The notes beneath the pieces were generated by a model. That model was not told where the DNA came from and ran no database searches. It saw nothing but the letters and a program-made list of their open reading frames with translations. From Anadara kagoshimensis (lineage: Eukaryota; Mollusca; Bivalvia; Arcoida; Arcidae): 64,000 nucleotides of DNA. A program made the position numbers and the translations under genes. The stretch is taken from NCBI GenBank assembly GCA_021292105.1, contig CM037867.1, positions 12,169,183-12,233,182 on the forward strand, written 5' to 3'. This document shows positions 3,600-62,709 of the stretch, one piece after another; within the stretch, counting starts at the first letter, position 1; each line of letters begins with the position of its first letter.

Positions 3600-4015
3600 A
3601 TTCCTAAATAGATGAGAATTCAATCATTTATCAATACTTTGTACAACGAAGTAGGCTGCTTGCAAATAAATTGTTGACTCAGGAATATTGCAAGCCTAGG
3701 CTTATCAAGGCCCTCAAAAAGTTTTATGGCCGTCATCACAGTATTGTTGATAAGTTTGATGTCTCTGTGTCCAGGATTGCCTTGGATATATTTGACGTCT
3801 CGTAGTTCCATGTTCCTTTCACACAATTTTGATTACACACGTGGCGGGTGTAGCTAGCTAAACAGGAGGTGCTTACCCTTCCGGAGCACCCGGCCTCACT
3901 TCCCTGGTGGAAGTTCACGTGTCTAACCTAACTTGTCAGTTCCAAAGTTTTTACTTTGCTTCTGGATTGTGATTCGGAAATGGATTAGTATGTTTGTTTT
4001 TGATTATCATTTGTC
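3600..4015 (+). pseudogene. Retroelement fragment: RT C-terminus plus 3' tail
   Basis: An open frame from about 3630 to the TAG at 3803-3805 encodes the C-terminal end of a reverse transcriptase, with LLANKLLTQEYCKPRL followed by KKFYGRHHSIVDKFDVSVSR. After the stop comes the 3' tail that recurs more than 20 times in this window (tagctagctaaacaggaggt, then cctcacttccctggtggaag, then ttactttgcttctggattgt), ending near gtatgtttgtttttgatt. The copy is 5'-truncated and cannot be functional. The RT belongs to a YIDD-box family common in animal genomes; I cannot place it securely as Penelope-like or LINE. Confidence 0.8.
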
Positions 4016-4535: not shown

Positions 4536-4779
4536 TGACCAATAAAAAGAGTTATTCTTCACAGAAATTTTCTCTCTTTGCTATTTATTTTAAAATTAAT
4601 ACCTGTAGCAATTTCTGTTGATCATGCTTTTTATTCTAACATAAAACATGAATATAATAATTAAAATTCACATTTATGGTGTGTTATTTTATCTATAGTC
4701 CGATCACATTTTCAGTAATGAAAAAACATGATTTGAATAGGTGGTGTGATTCAACTTTAGATATCTCACTTGATATAAC

Positions 4780-23329: not shown

Positions 23330-24240
23330 ATATTTTGTCAAGCACCATATAGATTTCTGACAAAAATATACTGAAGAAACCATCAACAAAATGTTGTAGT
23401 TTTTGATAGACAACATATTTGTTGTGTTTGGTAATATGATTTTCCAGCAAACAATCAGTAAACCAATGGGCACAAACTGTGCACCGTCGCTTGCTTATTT
23501 GATTCTTTATTTTTATGAAGCAGAATTTATGCAGAACCTTGTTGAATATAAAGAGAAGGCTGTCGCCAAATCATTCAACTCCACATACAGATACTAGATG
23601 TCATTTTCTCTTTATTACATTTGGCGATTATATGAATGTCATCTATTCTAGTGAGTTTATAATAAAAGATACGACTATGTCTTCAAGTTCTGCTTCATAT
23701 TTAGACGTATACCTTAATTATAACGCCCAAAAAAGGTAACATTTGAAACTGTTTGACTAACACGATGACTTCAATTTTTTTATTGCCTTTTGGCCTTTAC
23801 TATACAGCAATATACCTGTTTCTTATGCTTATGGTAAATTTATTTCTCAATTAATACGGTAGAGCTTGTTACCACTATGGGAACTTTATACAACGAATCA
23901 AGCTGCTTACAAGTAAATTGTTGACTCATGGATTTTGCAAGCCTAGACTTATCAGGGCCCTCAAAATGTTTTATGGCCGTCATAACAGTATTGTTGATAA
24001 GTTTGGTGTCTTTGTGTCCAGGATTGCCCTGAATATGTTTGACGTCCCATAGTTCCATGTTTCTTTCACTCAAGGTTGATTACACACGTGGCGGGTTATA
24101 GCTAGCTTAACAGGAGGTCTAATCCTTTAGGAGCACCCATCCTCATTTCCCTGGTGGAGGTTTACGTATTTTACCTAATTTATCAGCTTCACATTGTGAC
24201 TCGGACTTGAATTTGTTTGCTTGACACAGACATGTATGTT
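23330..24240 (+). pseudogene. Longest-spanning retroelement RT copy, degraded
   Basis: The + strand encodes the RT block KPMGTNCAPSLAYLILYFYE followed by AEFMQNLVEY and SFNSTYRY (23403-23597), where a stop interrupts just before the expected YIDD aspartates. Decayed SASYLD, KRDDFNF-like and NFPF-like stretches follow in shifting frames (23640-23830). The C-terminal KFYGRHH region lies at about 23900-24050, and the 3' tail (aacaggaggtctaatc, ccctggtggagg) ends near 24240. Multiple stops and frameshifts make it a pseudogene. No endonuclease domain is visible. Confidence 0.8.
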
Positions 24241-25390: not shown

Positions 25391-25769
25391 TGATTAATCT
25401 TCACAGCCTGTACCAGGTCGATTTTGATAGACAACTGATATTAAAAAAAAAACATATGTTACGTAATGTCGATCACATGCAAATATCAGGTGATCATGAA
25501 TAACATGTGTTCTAATATATAGTCAGAAATGTCTTACACTCAGGTTTTTTGTCTTTTAATTTAAATGACTGAAAATATTTTCATTTTTACTTGCTGAAAT
25601 TTATTAACAATCGATAAATAATAATAATAGTGCCTAATAAGCACTTTATTTAGAAAAAATTCCAATTTATGCAATAATTAAAATTAAACAAAGTGTCCAT
25701 TTACCTGGGTTGTGAGTTAGTATTTCGAGACTAGTGATATACTAAATTGGGACAGACTAGCAACAGAGT

Positions 25770-26008
25770 AAATCGGGACTACTGAGCGAGTCACTCGGAA
25801 GTAGTGAGCAAGTCACTCGAGACTAGTAGGTGAGTCACTTGGGATTAAAGCACGAGTAACCCCGGGCGTAGTAACGTAGTAACCCGGGAGTATTGGTGGA
25901 GCAATTCGGGACAAATGAATGAGTTATTTGGAACTAGTAAGCCGGTTACTTGGGACTAGTGAGGTAGTCACTCGAGACTATAGTGAGCGAGTCACTTGAG
26001 GCTAACCC
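25770..26008. repeat. Degenerate GAGTCACTCGGGACTAGT minisatellite
   Basis: About ten imperfect units of 20-26 bp of the type agtgagcgagtcactcgaga. The array is duplicated at 29090-29335 with its segmental copy. It abuts the 3' end of the LINE fragment. Confidence 0.75.
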
Positions 26009-29089: not shown

Positions 29090-29335
29090 CAGACTAGCAA
29101 CAGAGTAAATCTGGACTAGTGACCTAGTCACTCGGAAGTAGTGAGCAAGTCACTCGAGACTAGTAAGTGAGTCACTTGGGATTAAAGAACGAACGTAGTA
29201 ACGTAGTAACCCGGGAGTATTGGTGGAGCACTTCGGGACAAATGAATGAGTTATTCGGAACTAATAAGCGGGTTACTTGGGACTAATGAGGTAGTCACTC
29301 GAGACTATAGTGAGCGAGTCACTTGAGGCTAACCC
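29090..29335. repeat. GAGTCACTCG minisatellite, second copy
   Basis: It is the segmental-duplication counterpart of 25770-26008, slightly shorter (the cccgggcg portion is missing). Confidence 0.75.
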
Positions 29336-30836: not shown

Positions 30837-33472
30837 GTTGGTTCTTTTAATAGTTTTATGCTTTTGTAAATATACAGTATTTTAATATTATATAGCGATC
30901 ATTAGGATTTCTTTTGCTTTAATTCTTTCCCCAATAAGTCCAAACCTAAGATTGCATTCATAGATCTAAATAAATCTTCGACTTGTTTCCCTCTTATCGC
31001 ATATGAATTTATTACTAAACCTAATTGGGAATGCATAGTATTGATCGGATCTGATATGGGTCGGTCGATGCAGCTTAAGCAAAGGCTACATCCAATCTCA
31101 CTTAAGAGGATTGGTTTTCTAGGTGACCAAAAGACTTAAAACACCGCCTTTTTAATTTTATGTAGTTTATGATTAAATTTTAAAAAATGGTATATGACAA
31201 TACCCCTATTTATGAAACTTAATAAAATAATTTTTATGGACATCCTCATTACACAGGATACACCTAGATTCTTACATCAATAAGCAATAATGTTAAGAAA
31301 TGTTGCATTTCCAAGAAAATTATAATCTCAGCAGGCAACATTTTTGTATTACTTTTGTCTATTTGCGACTAGTTACAATCTGAGAATACTCAAAAACTAA
31401 GGTATACTTCCTCATGCCAAGCATTTCCTAAAACGAATTTGGTTAAATATATTTTGGTTCTTTGGATATTTTTCAACCCCTTCAAGAGGGTTTGTTTCAC
31501 AATTTTGGTCTAAACACTACTAATGATGAATTGCATTTTGAAACGGCCGTCAAATACTGTAAAATTAAAACTGGTTCAATATGTAATAATGTTACTTTTA
31601 CTTACTTATGTATATATATTTTACATAGGATGCACTGCGATAAGCTGTAGGAGTGGATGGGTCCATCACGACACTTCCTGTTACCTTGCCGTTCATTTGG
31701 AAGAATCGTGGGTGGTGGCTGAGGTAGGTTGCTTCCTATAATATAAATATGTCAATAAAGTTAATCGTATATTTAAACGACCGTCTAGAGCTGTAAAATT
31801 AAAACTGGTATAACATGTAATTATTTATTCAAAACTTAAGAAAAAGTTTAATTGTTTTCTAGAGTTTTAAAATGCATGTTTGTAACAACAAGAACCGTAC
31901 ACAACGATGAAACATGAATTACAAAGAATAAATTCAGTTTTGTTTTAGAAAACATTTTAACTTATTTTTAATTATGGATATGAAGTGGCGCCGGTTGTTT
32001 TTTTTTTTTTTTTTTTTTTTTTTGTCGGTTGTCTTTGAGTAATCTAGAACCGACACATGAATACATGTATGTCAAATATTGGCGCTGATGTTTTCCAACC
32101 CACCAATCATGGAGTTCGGTAGTGTATCATGTGATCAATAACATTTGTACGTAACGTTTTAGAAAATGTTTACGTCGAAAACCAGAGTAACATTATTTTT
32201 ATGGACAATCGTCAACTTATGGAAGTAATTTTTCTACTCGAACGTTACGGGGTATAACGTAGCAAAATGTTACACCCCATTTATCATTTTTAAACACACG
32301 CCATGAATACCTTAAATACCTTACAGTACTGTCAGTAACCCATTGTTTGATCTCGGTGTTTTAGTGCATGTCTTCCAATAACACAGCGTAAGCATGCCGC
32401 ATTCTCTAGAAATAAAGTTTTCAAAGATACTAAATACGAAAGTTCTAAAATTGCAGAGTCTTTGTCCATCTTTTTTAAGAAACTGTATCCATGAATGCGC
32501 ATCACTACGGTGTCTTAGTTGATAGAATGCGGTATATTTGAGAGATCGTGCGTTTGAACCCCAGCCTTGCAAATAGGTAGTGACTGTTCTTTCGACAAGC
32601 ACTCGGTATTTAGAATTAAAAAAAAACACGGCGTCATTCGGAAGAGATCTTAAAACTGTCGCTCCGTCAAGCGTGGCACATTAAAGAACCCTCCCTGCAC
32701 ATTGATCTGAGCGCTGCAAAATTTAAAATTTCTGCCTCTTCTCCTATAGCTAGTGACGTTTCTATATAGGTGAAATATTCTTGACTGGGAGGTTATATCC
32801 CTTTTCAATCTGTACTCGATCATAAATGCACAAATATTTAAAAATCAAAATTTAGCCTTTTCGCAAGTTTGAGATCACTGATTTATGAAAATCACAAGAT
32901 CTATAAGAAAAACAAGAAAAGGTGTTAAAACTTTCCTATATTAATGCTTACATATAGTTTTCATGCTCCGAGGTCTATCTCAGGGGGGGGGGGAGAATAA
33001 AATGTTTAACATAAGAACTGTGAATTTTGTAAAGAAAATGTCCCGCAAATGGGTGAAAAACAGGGAAATTGTCAAAATAGGGATATATTACATGGCCCTA
33101 GAAATATATTAAGTAGTCTGCTACCACGTGGTTGTTTTTCTTTATAAACCATGCCTTAATAGCCTTCCAAAAATAAGGCAAGTAAAACAGTTTAATGCAG
33201 GACATGTTTGGTTTTTCAGCAAGCATCTTTACAAAACTATTTTACATAATTTTATTTTAGTTTTGAGTTTTGATATTTTCTGTTTTACATGTTTTTATTT
33301 TTGTAGAATCATTGGTAGAGATATTTTCTGTTTCAAATTTTATTTCTTTATTTTTTAGGAACATTGCAGAATTTTAGGTGGTATGTTGGCAGAAATCAAT
33401 AATGCTAGTGAAAACGCATTCTTACAATCAATGTTACAACGTCAAAACCTCCATAAAGGTATGCAAGGATTG

Positions 33473-33937: not shown

Positions 33938-34449
33938 CTGTAAATATTAGATATATATAGAGTATAACGCATGGTAAAACTCCATATCAGACATAGGGTT
34001 CTAGCCTGAGGTATCAGTGATATTGGTAGAGGGCTAATATGACATGTGAGCATCATATAGCAAAATATTAAAAACTACATATATGATAAATGTGTACAGC
34101 TAAGTATTAACAATGTTCTTTTGCAGATTACTGGATAGGTGGTACTGATGTTGAAGTTGAAGGAGAATGGAAATGGGTTAGTAGCAGGCAGAGATTTACA
34201 TTTATCGACTGGAGTACCGGAGAACCAAACAACGTCGTCAAGGATGGGATGTCGGAGGGATGTGCTATGATGTCATGGGGTGTCCAATACAAATGGAATG
34301 ACGCAAATTGTGCGACCGCCAAAGCGCATTTTGTATGCGAAATAGAGTATGCATTAATACATATAATTACTCGGCCAATGTGTTATAATTTTAATGTGCT
34401 GCCATTTCAAAAATTTCTCCCAAATGCACCCCAACTAGGGAATCCGTGA
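30794..34449 (+). CDS. Secreted C-type lectin, EPN/WND type, 4 exons
   Basis: Predicted extracellular carbohydrate-binding protein of 186 residues. Exons are 30794-30836, 31629-31723, 33359-33458 and 34127-34449, with intron phases 1, 0 and 1; the joined length is 561 nt with no internal stop. The N-terminus MTAIILFVFLFAVSG is a signal peptide. The CTLD follows: an N-terminal Cys pair of the long form (SCRSGW, SCYL), EHC, WIGG, the calcium/sugar motif EPN, EGC, the calcium motif WND, then NDANC and HFVCE. All four core disulfide cysteines are present. EPN in this family usually means mannose-type binding; that is inference here. There is no transmembrane segment and no second domain. The read-through tail of about 35 residues after the last Cys may be real, or a donor at 34347 (GA|GTATGC) may lead to a further exon. 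No AATAAA is obvious downstream. Confidence 0.85.
31629..31723 (+). CDS. Lectin exon 2 (CTLD N-terminal part)
   Basis: Acceptor tttacatag|GA, donor GAG|GTAGGT. It encodes CTAISCRSGWVHHDTSCY and then the strand ending SWVVAE. The cysteines at SC and SCY form the extra N-terminal disulfide of long-form CTLDs. Confidence 0.85.
31998..32023. repeat. Poly-T tract
   Basis: A run of about 26 T in lectin intron 1. Confidence 0.9.
32500..32790 (+). mobile_element. SINE family A copy in lectin intron 1
   Basis: Degenerate tRNA head with a B box cgtttgaacccca (about 32551), then ggtagtgactgttctttcg, caagcactcgg, gcgtggcac-ttaaagaaccct, cttctcctatagct and the 3' end tatataggtgaaatattcttga. It aligns throughout with 33556-33860 and has the same orientation as the gene. 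Confidence 0.8.
33359..33458 (+). CDS. Lectin exon 3 (CTLD helix 2 region)
   Basis: Acceptor tttttttag|GAA, donor AAAG|GTATGC. It encodes EHCRILGGMLAEINNASENA and continues to QNLHK. The GGMLAEI block is the conserved CTLD alpha-2 signature. Confidence 0.9.
33477..33556. repeat. (CT)n(GT)n compound microsatellite
   Basis: About 20 CT units followed by about 18 GT units, 19 bp after the exon 3 donor. Confidence 0.95.
33556..33860 (+). mobile_element. SINE family A copy in lectin intron 2
   Basis: The tRNA-like head has an A-box region (tgtggtagagtg) and an exact B box gggttcgaacccc (33598-33610). The body runs gtgactattctttcgccaag ... cggtaggcgtggcacgataa ... to tcgatataagtgaaatattc. CT/GT microsatellites lie on both sides. 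It is the best-preserved head of the family in this window. Confidence 0.85.
33872..33940. repeat. (CT)n microsatellite
   Basis: Imperfect CT run of about 68 bp following the SINE in lectin intron 2. Confidence 0.9.
34127..34449 (+). CDS. Lectin exon 4 (sugar-binding core and C-terminus)
   Basis: Acceptor ctttttgcag|AT. G + AT gives Asp, then YWIGG. It encodes WKWVSSRQRF, the calcium/sugar site TGEPNN, EGCAMMSWG, KWNDANC and HFVCE, and stays open to TGA 34447-34449. A donor-like GTATGC at 34347 could end the exon earlier. Confidence 0.9.
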
Positions 34450-35049: not shown

Positions 35050-35430
35050 ATTTTGAATGCATTTTATGATTTATTCAAAAATATTTTTGATAAATAAATT
35101 GTTGGCTAAGGGATATTGCAAGTCTAGGCTTATCAAGGTTCTTAAACAGTTTTATGGCCGTCATCACAGTATTGTTGATAAGTTTGATGTCTCTGTATCA
35201 AGAATTGCCCTGGATATATTTGACGTACCAAAGTTCTATGTTCTTTTCACACAATTTTGAATACACACGTGGCGGGTGTAGTTAGCTAAACAGGAGGTGC
35301 TTACGCTTCCGGAGCACCCGGCCTCACTTCCCTAGTGAAAGTTCACGTATGTAACCTGACAGTTACAAAGTTTTTACTTTGCTTCTGGATTGTGATTCGG
35401 ACATGGATAAGTATGTTTGTTTTTTATTTT
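35050..35430 (+). pseudogene. Retroelement fragment: RT C-terminus plus 3' tail
   Basis: The open frame 35057-35260 encodes NKLLAKGYCKSRLIKVLK, FYGRHHSIVDKFDVSVSR and IALDIFDV; the family's stop codon is lost, so the frame runs on into the tail. The 3' tail (gtagttagctaaacaggagg, cctcacttccctagtgaaag) follows to about 35430. Confidence 0.8.
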
Positions 35431-36704: not shown

Positions 36705-36965
36705 GCGTGAACTTCTACCACGGTAGTGAGGCTGGATAGTCCGGAAGGTTAAACACATCCTGTTTAGCCAGCTACACCTGTCGGGCGTGTAATCAAAAGT
36801 TGGAATGCAAGCAACATGGAACTGTGAAACATTAAATATATCCATGGTAATTATGAATACAGAGACATCAAACATATTAACATTATGATGATCATCATAA
36901 AAGTTTTTGAGGGTCTTGATAAGCTTAGGCCTGCAATATCCTTGTTCAACAATTTATTTGTAAGC
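36705..36965 (-). mobile_element. Retroelement 3' fragment
   Basis: The complement of the tail (cttctaccacggtagtgagg, catcctgtttagccagctac) leads into the complement of the RT C-terminus (aatatatccatgg, gagggtcttgataagcttag). The coding frame is broken. Confidence 0.75.
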
Positions 36966-43490: not shown

Positions 43491-43498
43491 AATATTAA
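43469..43498 (+). repeat. Left part of a satellite monomer split by a MITE
   Basis: ctatgtgaagtcaaatgtat then ggtataatcg and aaatattaa matches the monomer. The rest of the monomer resumes after the MITE at 44487. Confidence 0.8.
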
Positions 43499-44486
43499 GG
43501 GTCGTCTAAGTAGGAAAATTCAAGTGAAAACCATTTGGTTGAAAAGCGTGAAAGAGGGGCATAATTATGAAATTACCTACACAAGCGTGAAGATTTATAA
43601 ACAAATACAGCAGGAATTGATAATTTTAGAAATTTTAAAATATTTGTTGCATGTTTTTATGAAAATAGTGCAAAAATACACGTGTTAGGGAAAATAGTTT
43701 ACAACTTGTATAATGAATTAATTTTAAAAAATGAAACGATATTAAGATAGTCAACATCATAAAGCAGTGCAAAGGGGCCAGAGTTTGTTAAAGAAATACG
43801 AGGTTTTTGAAAACTCGACAATTTACGGTTGATGTTATCTACGATTTATTTTTCTTTTAAAAATGCGTGTACCAGGCGTGACATTTATATTCTAAGGCCA
43901 CTAATAATCCAAAATACAACAAGTCACTAAAAGTGCACGGTCACACAATACTGTTCTATTTGAATTGGGGTGAATATTGTTTAGTTTCAACTATGTTGAA
44001 CTATATAAAGCCGAATATGCCTCAACAATAATCAAGTAATATACAAACTTAGCTTTTATAATCTTCCCTTGGATCGTTGGTAACCTTAGAATACGAACCA
44101 TCACGCCTTGTACACGCATTTTTAAAAGGAAAACAAATCGTAGAAAACCTCAACCGTAAATTGTCGAGTTTTCAAAAACCTCGTATTTCTTTAACAAACT
44201 CTGGCCCCTTTGCACTGCTCTATGACGTTGACTATATTAATATCTTTTCATTTTTTTAAAATTAATTCGTTATACAAGGTGTAAACTATTTTCCCCAACA
44301 CGTGTATTTTTGCACAATTTCCTTTAAAAAATGCAACAAATATTTTAAAAACTCTTAAATTATCAATTCTTACTTTATTTTTATTTATAAATCTTCACGC
44401 TTGTGTAGGTAATTTCATAATTATACCCCTCTTTCACGCTTTTCAACCAAATGGTTTTCACTTGAATTCTCCTACTTATATGACCC
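43499..44486. mobile_element. TTAA-flanked foldback MITE, 988 bp
   Basis: TTAA lies on both sides (43495-43498 and 44487-44490). The terminal inverted repeats begin gggtcgtctaagtagga and, from the right end, gggtcatataagtagga. The arms are about 385 bp (to about 43885 and from about 44101) with a core of roughly 215 bp. TTAA duplication is the piggyBac signature, but no transposase is present. It interrupts a satellite monomer, so it is younger than that monomer. Confidence 0.88.
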
Positions 44487-46026
44487 TTAATGAAAATAAC
44501 TTTGTATTAACTTGCCGAACCATAATTCCGTATTTTTTTCATTCTCAAAGACAGATGTAGCAGGTGCTTATCTTTCTAACTATGTGAAGTCAAATGTATG
44601 GTATAATCGAATATTAATAACTCTGTATTGACTTGCCGTACCATATTTCCGGTTTTTTTCATTCTTAAAGACAGATGAAGCAGGTGCTTATCTTTCTAAC
44701 TATGTGAAGTCAAATGTATGGTATAATCGAAATATTAATAACTCTGTATTGACTTGCCGTACCATATTTCCGGTTTTTTTTTCTTAAAGACAGATGAAGC
44801 AGGTGCTTATCTTTCTAACTATGTGAAGTCAAATGTATGGTATAGTCGAAATATTAATAACTCTGTATTGACTTGCCGTACCATATTTCCGGTTTTTTTT
44901 TCATTATTAAAGACAGATGAAGCAGGTGCTTATCTTTCTAACTATGTGAAGTCAAATGTATGGTATAATCGAAATATTAATAACTCTGTATTGACTTGCC
45001 GTACCATATTTCCGGTTTTTTCATTCTTAAAGACAGATGAAGCAGGTGCTTATCTTTCTAACTATGTGAAGTCAAATGTATGGTATAATCGAAATATTAA
45101 TAACTCTGTATTGACTTGCCGTACCATATTTCCGGTTTTTTTTTTTCTTAAAGACAGATGAAGCAGGTGCTTATCTTTCTAACTATGTGAAGTCAAATGT
45201 ATGGTATAATCGAAATATTAATAACTCTGTATTGACTTGCCGTACCATATTTCCGGTTTTTTTCATTCTTAAAGACAGATGAAGCAGGTGCTTATCTTTC
45301 TAACTATGTGAAGTCAAATGTATGGTATAATCGAAATATTAATAACTCTGTATTGACTTGCCGTACCATATTTCCGGTTTTTTTCATTCTTAAAGACAGA
45401 TGAAGCAGGTGCTTATCTTTCTAACTATGTGAAGTCAAATGTATGGTATAATCGAAATATTAATAACTCTGTATTGACTTGCCGTACCATATTTCCGGTT
45501 TTTTTATTCTTAAAGACAGATGAAGCAGGTGCTTATCTTTCTAACTATGTGAAGTCAAATGTATGGTATAATCGAAATATTAATAACTCTGTATTGACTT
45601 GCCGTACCATATTTCCGGGTTTTTTCATTCTTAAAGACAGATGAAGCAGGTGCTTATCTTTCTAACTATGTGAAGTCAAATGTATGGTATAATCGAAATA
45701 TTAATAACTCTGTATTGACTTGCCGTACCATATTTCCGGTTTTTTTATTCTTAAAGACAGATGAAGCAGGTGCTTATCTTTCTAACTATGTGAAGTCAAA
45801 TGTATGGTATAATCGAAATATTAATAACTCTGTATTGACTTGCCGTACCATATTTCCGGGGTTTTTTTTTTTCTTAAAGACAGATGAAGCAGGTGCTTAT
45901 CTTTCTAACTATGTGAAGTCAAATGTATGGTATAATCGAAATATTAATAACTCTGTATTGACTTGCCGTACCATATTTCCGGGTTTTTTTTTCTTAAAGA
46001 CAGATGTAGCAGGTGCTTATCTTTCT
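44487..46026 (+). repeat. 120-bp satellite array, 12 complete monomers
   Basis: Monomers start at acagatgaagcaggtgctta: 44551, 44671, 44790, 44913, 45033, 45154, 45275, 45396, 45516, 45637, 45757 and 45880, with a partial one at 46000. Spacing is 119-123 bp and varies mainly in a T run. Inner monomers are almost identical; the outermost share acagatgtag instead. Multiples of three make fortuitous ORFs (for example 44754-45161 and 45670-46131) with a 40-residue repeat; T-run changes break them, so coding is unlikely. Confidence 0.95.
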
Positions 46027-48534: not shown

Positions 48535-49302
48535 TTAATCAAAAACAAACGTACTAATCCATATCCGAATCACAATCCAGAAGCAAAGTAAATCTTTGGA
48601 ACTGACAAGTTAGGTTAGACACGTGAACTTCCACCAGGGAAGTGAGGCCGGGTGCTCCGGAAGAGTAAGCACCTCCTGTTTAGCTAGCTACATCCGCCAC
48701 GTGTGTAATCAAAATTGTGTGAAAGGAACATGGAACTATGAGACGTCAAATATATCCAAGGCAATCCTGGACACAGAGACATCAAACTTATCAACAATAC
48801 TGTGATGACGGCCATAAAACTTTTTGAGGGCCTTGATAAGCCTAGGCTTGCAATATCCCTGAGTCAACAATTTATTTGCAAACAGCCTACTTCGTTGTAC
48901 AAAGTCCCCGTAGTGGGAAAAAACTCTACCATAGCGTATTAATTGGGAAACAAATACACCATAAGCAGGAGAAGCAGATATATTGCTGCATAAAAAAGGA
49001 AATTGACAATTATAGAAAAATTGAAGTCATCACGTTTCAAATGTACCCTTTCCTGTTCGTCATAATTCAGGTATAAATCTAAATATGAAGCAGAACTTGA
49101 GGAATCAGTCGTGTCTTATTTCAAGCTCACTAGGATAGATGGCATTTACATAGTCTCCAAATTTAGGATTGTTAAGAGACAGGACGTCATCTATATATCT
49201 GTATGTTGAGTTGAATGATTTGGCGACAGTTTTCTCTCCAGATTTAACAAGGCTCTGCATAAATTCTGCTTCGTAAGAATAAAGAAACAAATCAGCAAGC
49301 AA
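48535..49302 (-). pseudogene. Retroelement RT copy with intact YIDD box
   Basis: On the minus strand, 49302-49105 encodes MLADLFLYSYEAEFMQSLVK, SFNSTYRYIDDVLSLNNPKF and GDYVNAIYPSELEI, an intact catalytic YIDD region. After that the frame breaks, with remnants of the SASYLD, KRDDFNF, NFPF and KFYGRHH blocks to about 48730 and the 3' tail complement to 48535 (ccagaagcaaagtaaatctt). It is the best-preserved catalytic motif of the family here, still 5'-truncated and frameshifted. Confidence 0.82.
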
Positions 49303-50284: not shown

Positions 50285-50940
50285 ATGTGTGTATTGTGTG
50301 TGTGTGTGTTAAAATTTGATTTCATTTAATTTTGATATTTGATTTAAGCAGTCAGTTTGGTGATAAAGTTAATTCTTCCATTTGCAGAGTTTGAAGAGAA
50401 GGACGATGTTTGATATTTGAAAACGGAAACCTATGAAAACCTAGACATCCAATGAAAATCTACATATCTTAAGAAGAATACATCACCATGGATACAGTAT
50501 GTTTTTCACTATTAATTGTTGACAATTCTATGTAAGTTTCAGTTTTTGCTACCCATTCAAATTTATTGTATTAATTTTAACTTTTTTACTTTTTTGGAAA
50601 AACTTTACAAACTTATGAACATGAAATTGTTATGGAAGTCCTTCGAGATGCGTAAAAGCGTTATTGGGATTTAATTATAATTTCGTATATTTGCGAATTA
50701 CTAATGCGAAGAAACGAAATAACTGTTGCGAATAAACGAAATACTATTTCGAAATACCTTTTTAACATATATCCTGTTACGGGCTTATATATAAAAATTG
50801 AAAAATAGTTTTGAATAATGAATATTTGCCTTTTTCCAAGTGTTGCAATGTTTCAAGCGATCTTAAAAACAAGTAACATAAGTCGCTGTAACATTTTGTC
50901 ATGTAACGCACATCAAAATGTATAAAAATAAAGATATTAT
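49650..50940. other. AT-rich stretch with one exon-like site
   Basis: No gene is supported. A possible short 5' exon (acceptor tttgcag at about 50385, then catcaccATGGATACA|GTATGT near 50488-50500) has a good start context but no continuation that I can identify. Confidence 0.3.
50239..50310. repeat. (AT)n(GT)n microsatellite
   Basis: Interrupted AT dinucleotide runs followed by a short GT run. Confidence 0.9.
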
Positions 50941-50947
50941 TGTGAAT

Positions 50948-51155
50948 GACCCGTACTTCCATGTTCCTTTTACACCATTTTGATTACACACGTGGCGGGG
51001 TAGCTAGCTAAACAGGAGGTGCTTACACTTCCGGAGCACCCGGCCTCACCTTCCTGGTAGAAGCCCACGTGTCTAACCTGATCGTCAGTTCCAAAGTCTT
51101 ACTTTGCTTTTGGATTTAGATTCGGACATGGATTAGTATGTTTGTTTTTACAAGT
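50948..51155 (+). mobile_element. Retroelement 3' tail
   Basis: It starts at the RT-stop neighbourhood (cgtacttccatgttcctttt) and runs through cacacgtggcggggtagcta and gagcacccggcctcac to gattagtatgtttgttttta. Confidence 0.75.
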
Positions 51156-61230: not shown

Positions 61231-61372
61231 ATTACAAAATATGACCGTCATCACAATACTCATAATAAGAATGGTTCCTCTGTATCCTAAATTATTCTGG
61301 ATATATGTGATGTCATGTAGTTCCGTGTTTCTTTCATTCTCAATTTTAATTTTGTATGTGGAGGTTGTAGGT

Positions 61373-61914
61373 TACGAAAGCCTATTAAGCTCATGAATAA
61401 AAAAAATTAAAAGGCGTAATAACGCGAAATAAAGGCGTTATAATGCGAAAAAAGGCCTTTAGAAAGGCGTAATAACGCGAATTAAAAGGCGTTATAACGC
61501 GAAATAAAGGCGTATTAACGCGAAATAAAGGCGAAATAACGCGAAATAAAGGCGTAATAACGCGAATTAAAAGGCGTAATAACGCGAATTAAAAGGCGTT
61601 ATAACGCGAAATAAAGGCGTATTAACGCGAAATAAAGGCGAAATAACGCGAAATAAAGGCGTAATAACGCGAATTAAAAGGCGTTATAACGCGAATTAAA
61701 AGGCGTTATAACGCGAAATAAAGGCGTATTAACGCGAAATAAAGGCGTAATAACGCGAATTGAAAGGCGTTATAACGCGAATTAAAAGGCGTTATAACGT
61801 GAAATAAAGGCTAATTAACGCGAAGTTAAGATGCCTTCCATAATGATGTGGAGGTCCTGGGGTTTAATCTCTACCCCCCCCCCCCACACACACACACTTT
61901 ACATATATATTAAG

Positions 61915-61948
<34 letters not shown>

Positions 61949-62627
61949 GTGTGTGTGTGTTTCCTGCACAACTATGTGTAATGTAATAAGCTGTTTTATA
62001 TGTATTTATTCTATGAAAATTAACAAAAAAAACTGCACATCATCCGATCCTGCGCTGAAATGAACATACTATTTCAGTAAGGTTTCTTTTCAATGTTGAA
62101 GTGTTGTTTTTTTCATAAAGAGTATCATTTTATATATGGGGATGGAAATCTTTTAAGTAATCTGAAATATAAACTTTGATAAACATTGGCAATGTACACA
62201 AGGCTATTTATTAAAAAGTTCCTGTCCAATTGTCAATCGCTAACTTTTAACACTTTCTGACATCTTCGTATGAATAGATCTACAGTTGCCTTAAGCTATT
62301 CAAACTAAAACCAATCTGTTTGTGGTGAGGGTTGTTAACATTCTCCAGGGAAGTGACTGCTCTATATATAGACAAAAAGGCGTTATTACGCCTTTTAATT
62401 CGCGTTATTATGCCTTTCGATTCGCGTTAATACGCCTTTCTAAAAGCGTTATAACGCCTTTCAATTCGCGTTATTACGCCTTTATTTCGCGTTATAACGC
62501 CTTTCAATTCGCGTTATTACGCCTTTCTAAAGGCGTTATAACGCCTTTTTTTCGCATTATAACGCCTTTATTTCGCGTTATTACGCCTTTTAATTTTTTT
62601 TATTCATGAGCTTAATAGGCTTTCGTA
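61373..62627. mobile_element. Foldback element with palindromic minisatellite arms
   Basis: The ends are exact inverted repeats beginning tacgaaagcctattaagctc, identical for about 70-80 bp. The flanks carry the direct repeat GTAGGT (61367-61372 and 62628-62633), a 6-bp target duplication. The arms then consist of 20-22 bp units (ggcgtaataacgcg plus aattaaaa or aaataaa): about 19 units on the left (61405-61830) and about 10, inverted, on the right (62378-62592). Each unit core, gcgttataacgc, is itself palindromic. The core of about 550 bp holds a CA/GT microsatellite and no ORF of note. Non-autonomous; superfamily unknown. Confidence 0.88.
61873..61962. repeat. C-run plus (CA)n/(GT)n microsatellite
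   Basis: A C13-type run, a short CA run, a spacer, then about 19 GT units, inside the foldback core. Confidence 0.9.
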
Positions 62628-62709
62628 GTAGGTACCTAGACAGGAGGTGCTTAAACTTCCGGAGCTCTTGACGTGGTGGAATTTAACGCGCTTTTATATC
62701 AAATGACCG

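Follow-up and report, generated by a model that had tools for sequence, protein, structure and literature searches.

An apparently young, high-copy foldback family with arms of 21–22-bp repeats and probable IS3EU/GingerRoot affinity in the genome of Anadara kagoshimensis

Introduction

Foldback elements are already known, as are tandem repeats within terminal inverted repeats (TIRs). According to the portions available of a study on Drosophila virilis, most foldback elements have been tied to the Mutator superfamily, with P-type exceptions (PMC4079207). Long TIRs with internal tandem repeats are described for Tetris, which was placed in Mutator (PMC4079207), as well as for Galileo of the P superfamily, and in the excerpted text the Galileo authors discuss these repeats as secondary transposase-binding sites (PMC3573991). 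Galileo and Tetris are known to make inversions and to seed satellites.

For the IS3EU superfamily, and mostly for GingerRoot, the accessible part of the description gives TA..TA ends together with a 6-bp target site duplication (TSD) (PMC10045372). In a fungal IS3EU set consisting of TET+ families, the TIRs are longer than 30 bp and end in TAYGG..CCRTA; in the sections available this pentamer is described for that one set and does not define the superfamily (PMC12730594). A literature search over titles and abstract beginnings, with Repbase outside its scope, found no foldback element with IS3EU-type ends and no 21-bp arrays in IS3EU or GingerRoot. One paper mentions both foldback and IS3EU, the two words being unconnected in the part of it that was available, and a paper on bivalve transposons (PMC10294476) has 0 mentions of IS3EU and 0 of foldback. 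A search for the repeat unit described below, GCGTTATAACGC, returned one unrelated paper.

Here we describe a foldback insertion in a stretch of 64,000 nucleotides from the bivalve Anadara kagoshimensis (hereafter the window), and compare it with its relatives in the host genome. Two features seem to be new: a foldback element whose ends are of IS3EU type, and 21-bp arrays that recur in several IS3EU-like elements within a single genome.

Results

Structure of the insertion

The insert spans positions 61373–62627 of the window (1,255 bp) and is flanked on both sides by the hexamer GTAGGT (61367–61372 and 62628–62633). An earlier note on this DNA had reported exact TIRs and a 6-bp duplication, and its coordinates are exact: the left 81 bp (61373–61453, forward strand) are identical to the inverted right 81 bp (62547–62627, reverse strand), with TACG...CGTA ends. 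Beyond the 81 bp the arms still match over ~70 bp more with few mismatches, after one 11-bp gap. This gap reflects a single unit core that the right arm keeps and the left arm lacks, and the alignment of the arms places the collapsed unit at 61445–61466 (forward strand).

Each arm opens with a 41-bp unit-free tip, followed by units at a spacing of 21 or 22 bp, and once of 32 bp at the collapsed unit; the spacing of 20 bp that had also been claimed is not seen. The count of about 29 units in inverted arms holds, with 29 recognizable cores, 19 in the left array (61414–61821, forward strand) and 10 in the right array (62380–62586, reverse strand), the two arrays being mutually inverted. Cores with no more than two mismatches to GCGTTATAACGC number 28 in the insert, against 1.14 expected, and none of 100 shuffles reaches 28. 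The unit had been called self-palindromic, which is true in part: 8 of the 28 cores in the window copy are exact palindromes, and perfect palindromes make up 254 of the 712 cores in 28 long copies of the family. A higher-order period of about five variants had likewise been proposed for the left array, and it corresponds to a 107-bp repeat (3.4 copies, 95% matches), a block of five unit variants. The two arrays enclose a unique core of 543 bp (61830–62372) with a CA/GT microsatellite, common to other long copies and devoid of a transposase-sized ORF. The insert has thus the long inverted arms of tandem repeats around a short core that characterize the foldback class.

For the single-stranded element, the predicted fold pairs the two arms with each other over most of their length. 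The left array alone gives a row of small hairpins in predicted folding (z −5.9, with 0 of 100 shuffles equally stable). Folding in many registers, as suggested previously, appears possible from the predictions for the element and for the left array.

Several other repeats were noticed in the window. A second inverted-repeat element of ~1 kb, with arms of ~390 bp that are 88–96% complementary and, by eye, with TTAA flanks, lies at 43494–44491, adjoining a 121-bp tandem array at 44495–46026 (12.7 copies, 97% matches). Repeats of 22 bp, ACTAGTGAGCGAGTCACTCGAG, lie at 25766–26004 and 29114–29332 in a duplicated segment, beside ORFs that by eye resemble the final part of a LINE-type reverse transcriptase. 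Further ORFs, at 31514–31738 and 34111–34446, resemble C-type lectin exons by eye.

Empty sites in the window

The flanks were joined without the insert, one hexamer being kept, and aligned across the window. They align straight through at six other places with 67–76% identity, and the hexamer is present once at each of these empty sites, mostly as GTAGCT. The site at 3725–3887 (forward strand) is 75% identical across the insertion point, with one GTAGCT; the further diverged empty sites are found at 48654–48816 (reverse strand), 35153–35315, 23972–24118, 50953–51037 and 36740–36892 (reverse strand). The left TSD copy is accordingly assigned both from the sequence and from the single hexamer at the diverged empty sites. 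Since the joined flanks match at six places, the flank of the insert is a dispersed repeat. To that extent, and no further, the proposed insertion inside a retroelement tail holds. It is noted that a short 22-bp repeat, CGAAATACTATTGCGAATAAA, occurs at 50694–50753, ~200 bp from one copy of the host repeat.

Family size and target site duplications

The genome searched is a 1.115-Gb assembly in 36 contigs. The unit core GCGTTATAACGC occurs at 4,564 places in it, against 24 for the reversed control, and the 23-bp tip, with up to two mismatches, at 1,159 places (576 + 583), against 0. The tip count and the core count, the latter at 7.4 exact cores per sampled copy, both lead to a family size of roughly 600 copies, which is an estimate from these counts and not a direct count. 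The family ends are TACGAAAG...CTTTCGTA.

Copies were sampled in two ways. Twelve core clusters were taken in list order, among the matches listed, by the unit core alone. Both ends are present in 8 of the 12 and one end in 3; at the remaining locus, L013, reading of the sequence finds a tip with a small deletion. No core-picked locus was thus free of the shared termini. The tip sample was drawn from the matches listed (100 of the 1,159, all on contigs C1–C3), of which 78 were fetched; the 22 left unfetched are 18 single ends and 2 pairs. Repeat records of one copy were dropped (among them L004–L007, L020–L027, L033–L036, L040–L043 and L046–L049), after which there remained 36 copies for which a candidate second end could be named.

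An exact 6-bp duplication flanks 30 of these 36 copies; exact duplications of 5 or 7–10 bp flank none, and one copy has a duplication of 2–4 bp. When flanks were swapped between copies, unmatched pairs agreed in only 1 of 1,260 cases. Among the six failures, L010, L045 and L059 agree at 5 of 6 bases and L029 and L038 at 3 of 6, while L065 has its hexamer one base out of register. It should be mentioned that L010 is a duplicate of L009, as judged by its flanks, and that the second ends of L038 and L045 are poor. Twenty further single-end loci yielded nine copies with a second end (one mismatch), all nine with an exact 6-bp duplication; nine had no second end, and two were dropped because their partner, with 7 errors, was a chance one. 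Pooled, 39 of 45 copies with a candidate second end carry the exact 6-bp TSD, and the duplication is therefore consistent in this sample. TA..TA ends are found in 35 of the 36 copies and in all nine further ones. The target hexamers vary between copies.

Two arrangements of copies were noticed by eye. Near the end of L088 (reverse strand), one family member seemingly interrupts the tip of a second one and is preceded by TTATTA. L030 and L031 contain, at about 1782–2060, duplicated one-armed copies, and immediately downstream of them an exon-like ORF whose small product would be rich in His and Tyr and has a secreted-like start.

Copy forms, array variation and age

The same core is present in 28 of the 36 copies. 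In these 28 long copies it lies on average 2.8% from the consensus (range 1.0–7.8%; 2.4% in the window copy), and the repeat around the insert is ~25% diverged from the closest related copies within the window. Because the core divergence is far below that of the flanking repeat, the family burst looks young by this comparison of sequences, in a sample picked mostly by exact tips, which favors young copies.

Copies closely resemble one another in the outer tip, in the innermost units and in the core, and array length differs widely, from 4 to 21 units per arm in the long copies. When the arrays are spelled out as successions of unit variants, many are alike near the tip and near the core and differ in the middle, sometimes with repeated blocks, as in L064 ('.ec.baec.baec.bsp'). 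The 107-bp period of the window copy resembles these block repeats. From the order of the units we infer that the arrays probably change through duplication and loss of unit blocks. The start of the array is nearly constant, with the first base of the first core 41–43 bp from the tip in all 14 arms measured. Short copies span 155–621 bp; the shortest, L059 (155 bp), is the one mentioned above with a TSD matching at 5 of 6 bases.

Search for an autonomous partner

A longer copy with a transposase had been hoped for in the earlier note. No transposase-bearing copy of the family, such as an autonomous IS3EU/GingerRoot element with its IS3/IS481-like DDE transposase, is present among the copies fetched (78 of the 100 tip places listed, of 1,159). 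The only long copy, L057 (3,470 bp), proves to be an ordinary one that owes its extra length to a different repeat interrupting the left arm, and L030, L031 and L037, also considered as long elements, are actually one-armed copies. An rva_4 match at C2:56177055 lies 11 kb inward of the tip at C2:56166028; the copy at this tip, L081, however, reaches its own second end within 1,103 bp, and the hexamer there matches. No other rva_4 matches were seen within 20 kb inward of the listed tips on C1–C3, with coordinates compared by eye. A viral link was considered as well, from the 16-mer AAGGCGTTATAACGCG, which occurs in 3 viral contigs, once in each; the stretches read around these matches contain no array, and the matches were attributed to chance.

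Transposons with an rva_4 integrase core in the same genome

The integrase-core domain PF24764 (rva_4), a model that we take to represent IS3EU-type transposases, has at least 102 matches in the host genome, a lower bound from 150 scored candidates of 224. Many of the matches are in open frames and fall into groups of identical score, and Pfam confirmed the rva_4 domain in all five ORFs given to it. The transposase of 486 aa at 1436–2893 of L090 has 8 matches of the same score in the genome, which suggests recent activity, and it also matches a SAM domain (PF07647, 21.4 bits, cut-off 20.5).

To find outer ends, two copies were compared for each of six rva_4 families, with some extended, and the end was fixed in four: TATGG in F417 and F486, TACGG in F344 and F479. 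These ends support the inferred assignment of rva_4 to IS3EU-type transposases. None of the four fixed-end families shares the tip of the insert family. Nor was this tip found in any of the seven rva_4 loci L090–L096, with up to 4 mismatches of 17 allowed, apart from one 4-mismatch match in L090.

Three of the four fixed-end families have 21-bp arrays between the end and the transposase ORF. The array of F344 (11.5 and 10.5 copies) lies 36 bp from the tip and that of F479 (17 and 22 copies) 37–40 bp from it; the array of F486 (14 copies) is better described as 42-bp pairs and lies further in, at about 375 bp. Near the end of F417 there are only short repeats, one of 53 bp (2 copies) and one of 22 bp (2.3 copies); its 21-bp array (4.5 copies) lies deeper inside, next to a sequence that resembles a tip of a different type. 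Within the stretches fetched, no 21-bp array is seen in the families of L091 and L093. The arrays of F344 and F479 are in frame before the transposase ORF and read as a 7-residue repeat; given a later ATG, leader and coding sequence are equally likely for them. In L096 (794–2230) and L094 (838–1869), 21-bp arrays are in open frame with the transposase ORF and are predicted to read as 7-residue repeats.

Exact tips of F479 (100 of 259 listed) form inward-facing pairs 14,817, 14,504, 14,080, 13,728 and 8,318 bp apart, and four of these five pairs enclose an rva_4 match among the matches listed. The two widest pairs have their exact tips at C18:37933500 and 37948316 and at C14:38736263 and 38750766. 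Large transposons with such inverted ends therefore exist in this genome.

Palindromy and phasing of the arrays

Palindromy was measured with 5-bp arms, 8-bp arms being too strict for the window element's own unit. Against units permuted by column, the arrays of the window element stand out, the observed palindromy being reached in 0 and 13 of 2,000 permutations. With the same control the counts are 54 and 87 of 2,000 for F479, 89 for the internal array of F417 and 236 for F344, and the F486 array shows no palindromy. Under dinucleotide shuffles, which keep composition and destroy repetition, perfect palindromes are extreme in no array, the window element's included; its left array has 7 perfect 10-bp palindromes against a shuffle mean of 4.45 and a largest value of 14. 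The palindromy described here accordingly refers to the column-permuted control.

Counted from the tip, the first unit of the window element has its core at 42–53 and its center at 47.5 bp. F479 has an inverted 5-mer pair also centered at 47.5 bp, and in F344 the first perfect inverted pair is at 68.5 bp, one 21-bp period further in, with an imperfect one preceding it. This agreement in offset was noticed after the fact. The tip itself was also tried as a diverged unit, and its local alignment is no better than that of shuffles (414 and 465 of 2,000).

Discussion

Superfamily placement

The TA..TA ends and the 6-bp TSD fit IS3EU/GingerRoot and do not fit Mutator, P or Dada. The TIR, at 81 bp, exceeds the 30 bp of the fungal set, and the tip pentamer is TACGA and not TAYGG, the fifth base being A. 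We consider that the insert probably belongs to a young, high-copy, non-autonomous foldback family of IS3EU/GingerRoot type, mobilized by a transposase from elsewhere. Derivation from a Polinton/Maverick or Dada element would explain the TSD length, which is about 6 bp in both, and is nevertheless very improbable. Polintons do have a TSD of about 6 bp, but their ends start with AG. Dada elements have no TIRs and insert into small RNA genes, as far as the available text states (PMC3706591), whereas the present family has an 81-bp TIR and varied target hexamers. Convergent anatomy in a Mutator or P foldback, after the fashion of Tetris or Galileo, has in its favor that Tetris and Galileo, known foldbacks with internal tandem repeats in long TIRs, belong there; it is improbable here, the TSD being 6 bp and not the 8–10 bp reported in the accessible text for Tetris (PMC4079207) or the 7 bp for Galileo (PMC3573991). 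Exact duplications of 8–10 bp occur in 0 of 36 copies, and exact ones of 7 bp also in 0 of 36. That the arrays are a satellite which some unrelated mobile element has picked up, in the manner of the Helitron/Helentron-borne satellites of molluscs, is scarcely credible when at least one tip, in one case damaged, accompanies the cores at 12 of 12 loci, and when TIRs and a TSD of fixed length are not known as Helitron features. Its precedent is the satellite arrays that molluscan Helitrons carry, according to the available parts of two reports (PMC5139131; PMC7492417).

Possible role of the arrays

If the IS3EU/GingerRoot placement is right, a transposase encoded elsewhere would recognize the TACG...CGTA ends, move the element and duplicate 6 bp of the target. 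The arms could have become foldback through tandem multiplication of a 21–22-bp, largely palindromic unit starting ~41 bp inside the tip, and array length would then have been altered by duplication or loss of unit blocks. Each unit might bind a transposase dimer, and a spacing of about two helix turns would put the dimers on one face of the DNA. The arrays as putative transposase-binding sites is a reading to which we give an even chance. It is suggested by the near-palindromic core within a directional unit, the palindromy against the permutation control, the tip offset and the 21-bp arrays of other families; it is weakened by the weak or absent palindromy of the other arrays, dinucleotide shuffles that single out none of the arrays, few-unit copies with TSDs and a tip unlike the unit.

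Alternatively, the arrays may be functionless, expanded by palindromes and by slippage or unequal exchange, with a transposase that needs the outer tip only. This possibility deserves serious consideration, even if we lean away from it. The range of 4 to 21 units per arm and the block duplications are in keeping with it, as are short copies of 234–621 bp that retain exact 6-bp duplications (L009, L060, L068, L069 and L084). The one-armed copy L037, whose right end is only ~12 bp long with a matching hexamer CAATCT (by eye), points the same way, although this form might equally have arisen through deletion afterwards. Against functionless arrays stand the arrays of the same period and other sequence that three further families in this genome carry between end and transposase, and the constancy of the first core at 41–43 bp from the tip.

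A wider form of the binding-site reading may be put forward only tentatively, as a conjecture we rather doubt. IS3EU/GingerRoot elements, autonomous members included, would commonly carry a subterminal 21-bp array ~40 bp inside the tip as a phased landing strip for several dimers, its sequence renewed in each family with spacing and offset kept, and the window foldback would be an extreme form after gene loss. It is made less likely by F417, the one fixed-end family of four that has only short repeats at this position. With a young IS3EU-ended foldback beside transposase elements that bear arrays, arrays as binding sites and arrays as slippage by-products can now be tested against each other, and concrete predictions follow from the helical spacing, the fixed tip offset and the varied array length.

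Comparison with known systems

Tetris and the related MITE DAIBAM of Drosophila virilis resemble the present family in being non-autonomous, with tandem repeats inside the TIRs of a foldback and an autonomous partner not found according to the text available; Tetris differs in its repeats of ~220 bp, its TSD of 8–10 bp and its placement in Mutator (PMC4079207). Galileo likewise has TIRs lengthened by tandem repeats, and differs in a repeat of ~210 bp, a 7-bp TSD and a P-type transposase, as given in the accessible sections (PMC3573991). Among molluscs, the Pacific oyster tandem repeats CgiSat35 and CgiSat47 are annotated as IS3EU, with monomers of 690 and 129 bp, respectively, in the part of the report available, and so differ from the short unit described here (PMC8268682). 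The closest likeness is to IS3EU/GingerRoot, with which the family shares TA..TA ends, a 6-bp TSD and long TIRs (PMC10045372). It differs in beginning with TACGA, in carrying no transposase in the copies fetched, and in its foldback form and subterminal palindromic array, neither of which is described in the available portion of that paper. Elements with an integrase-core transposase and TAYGG ends share its host genome.
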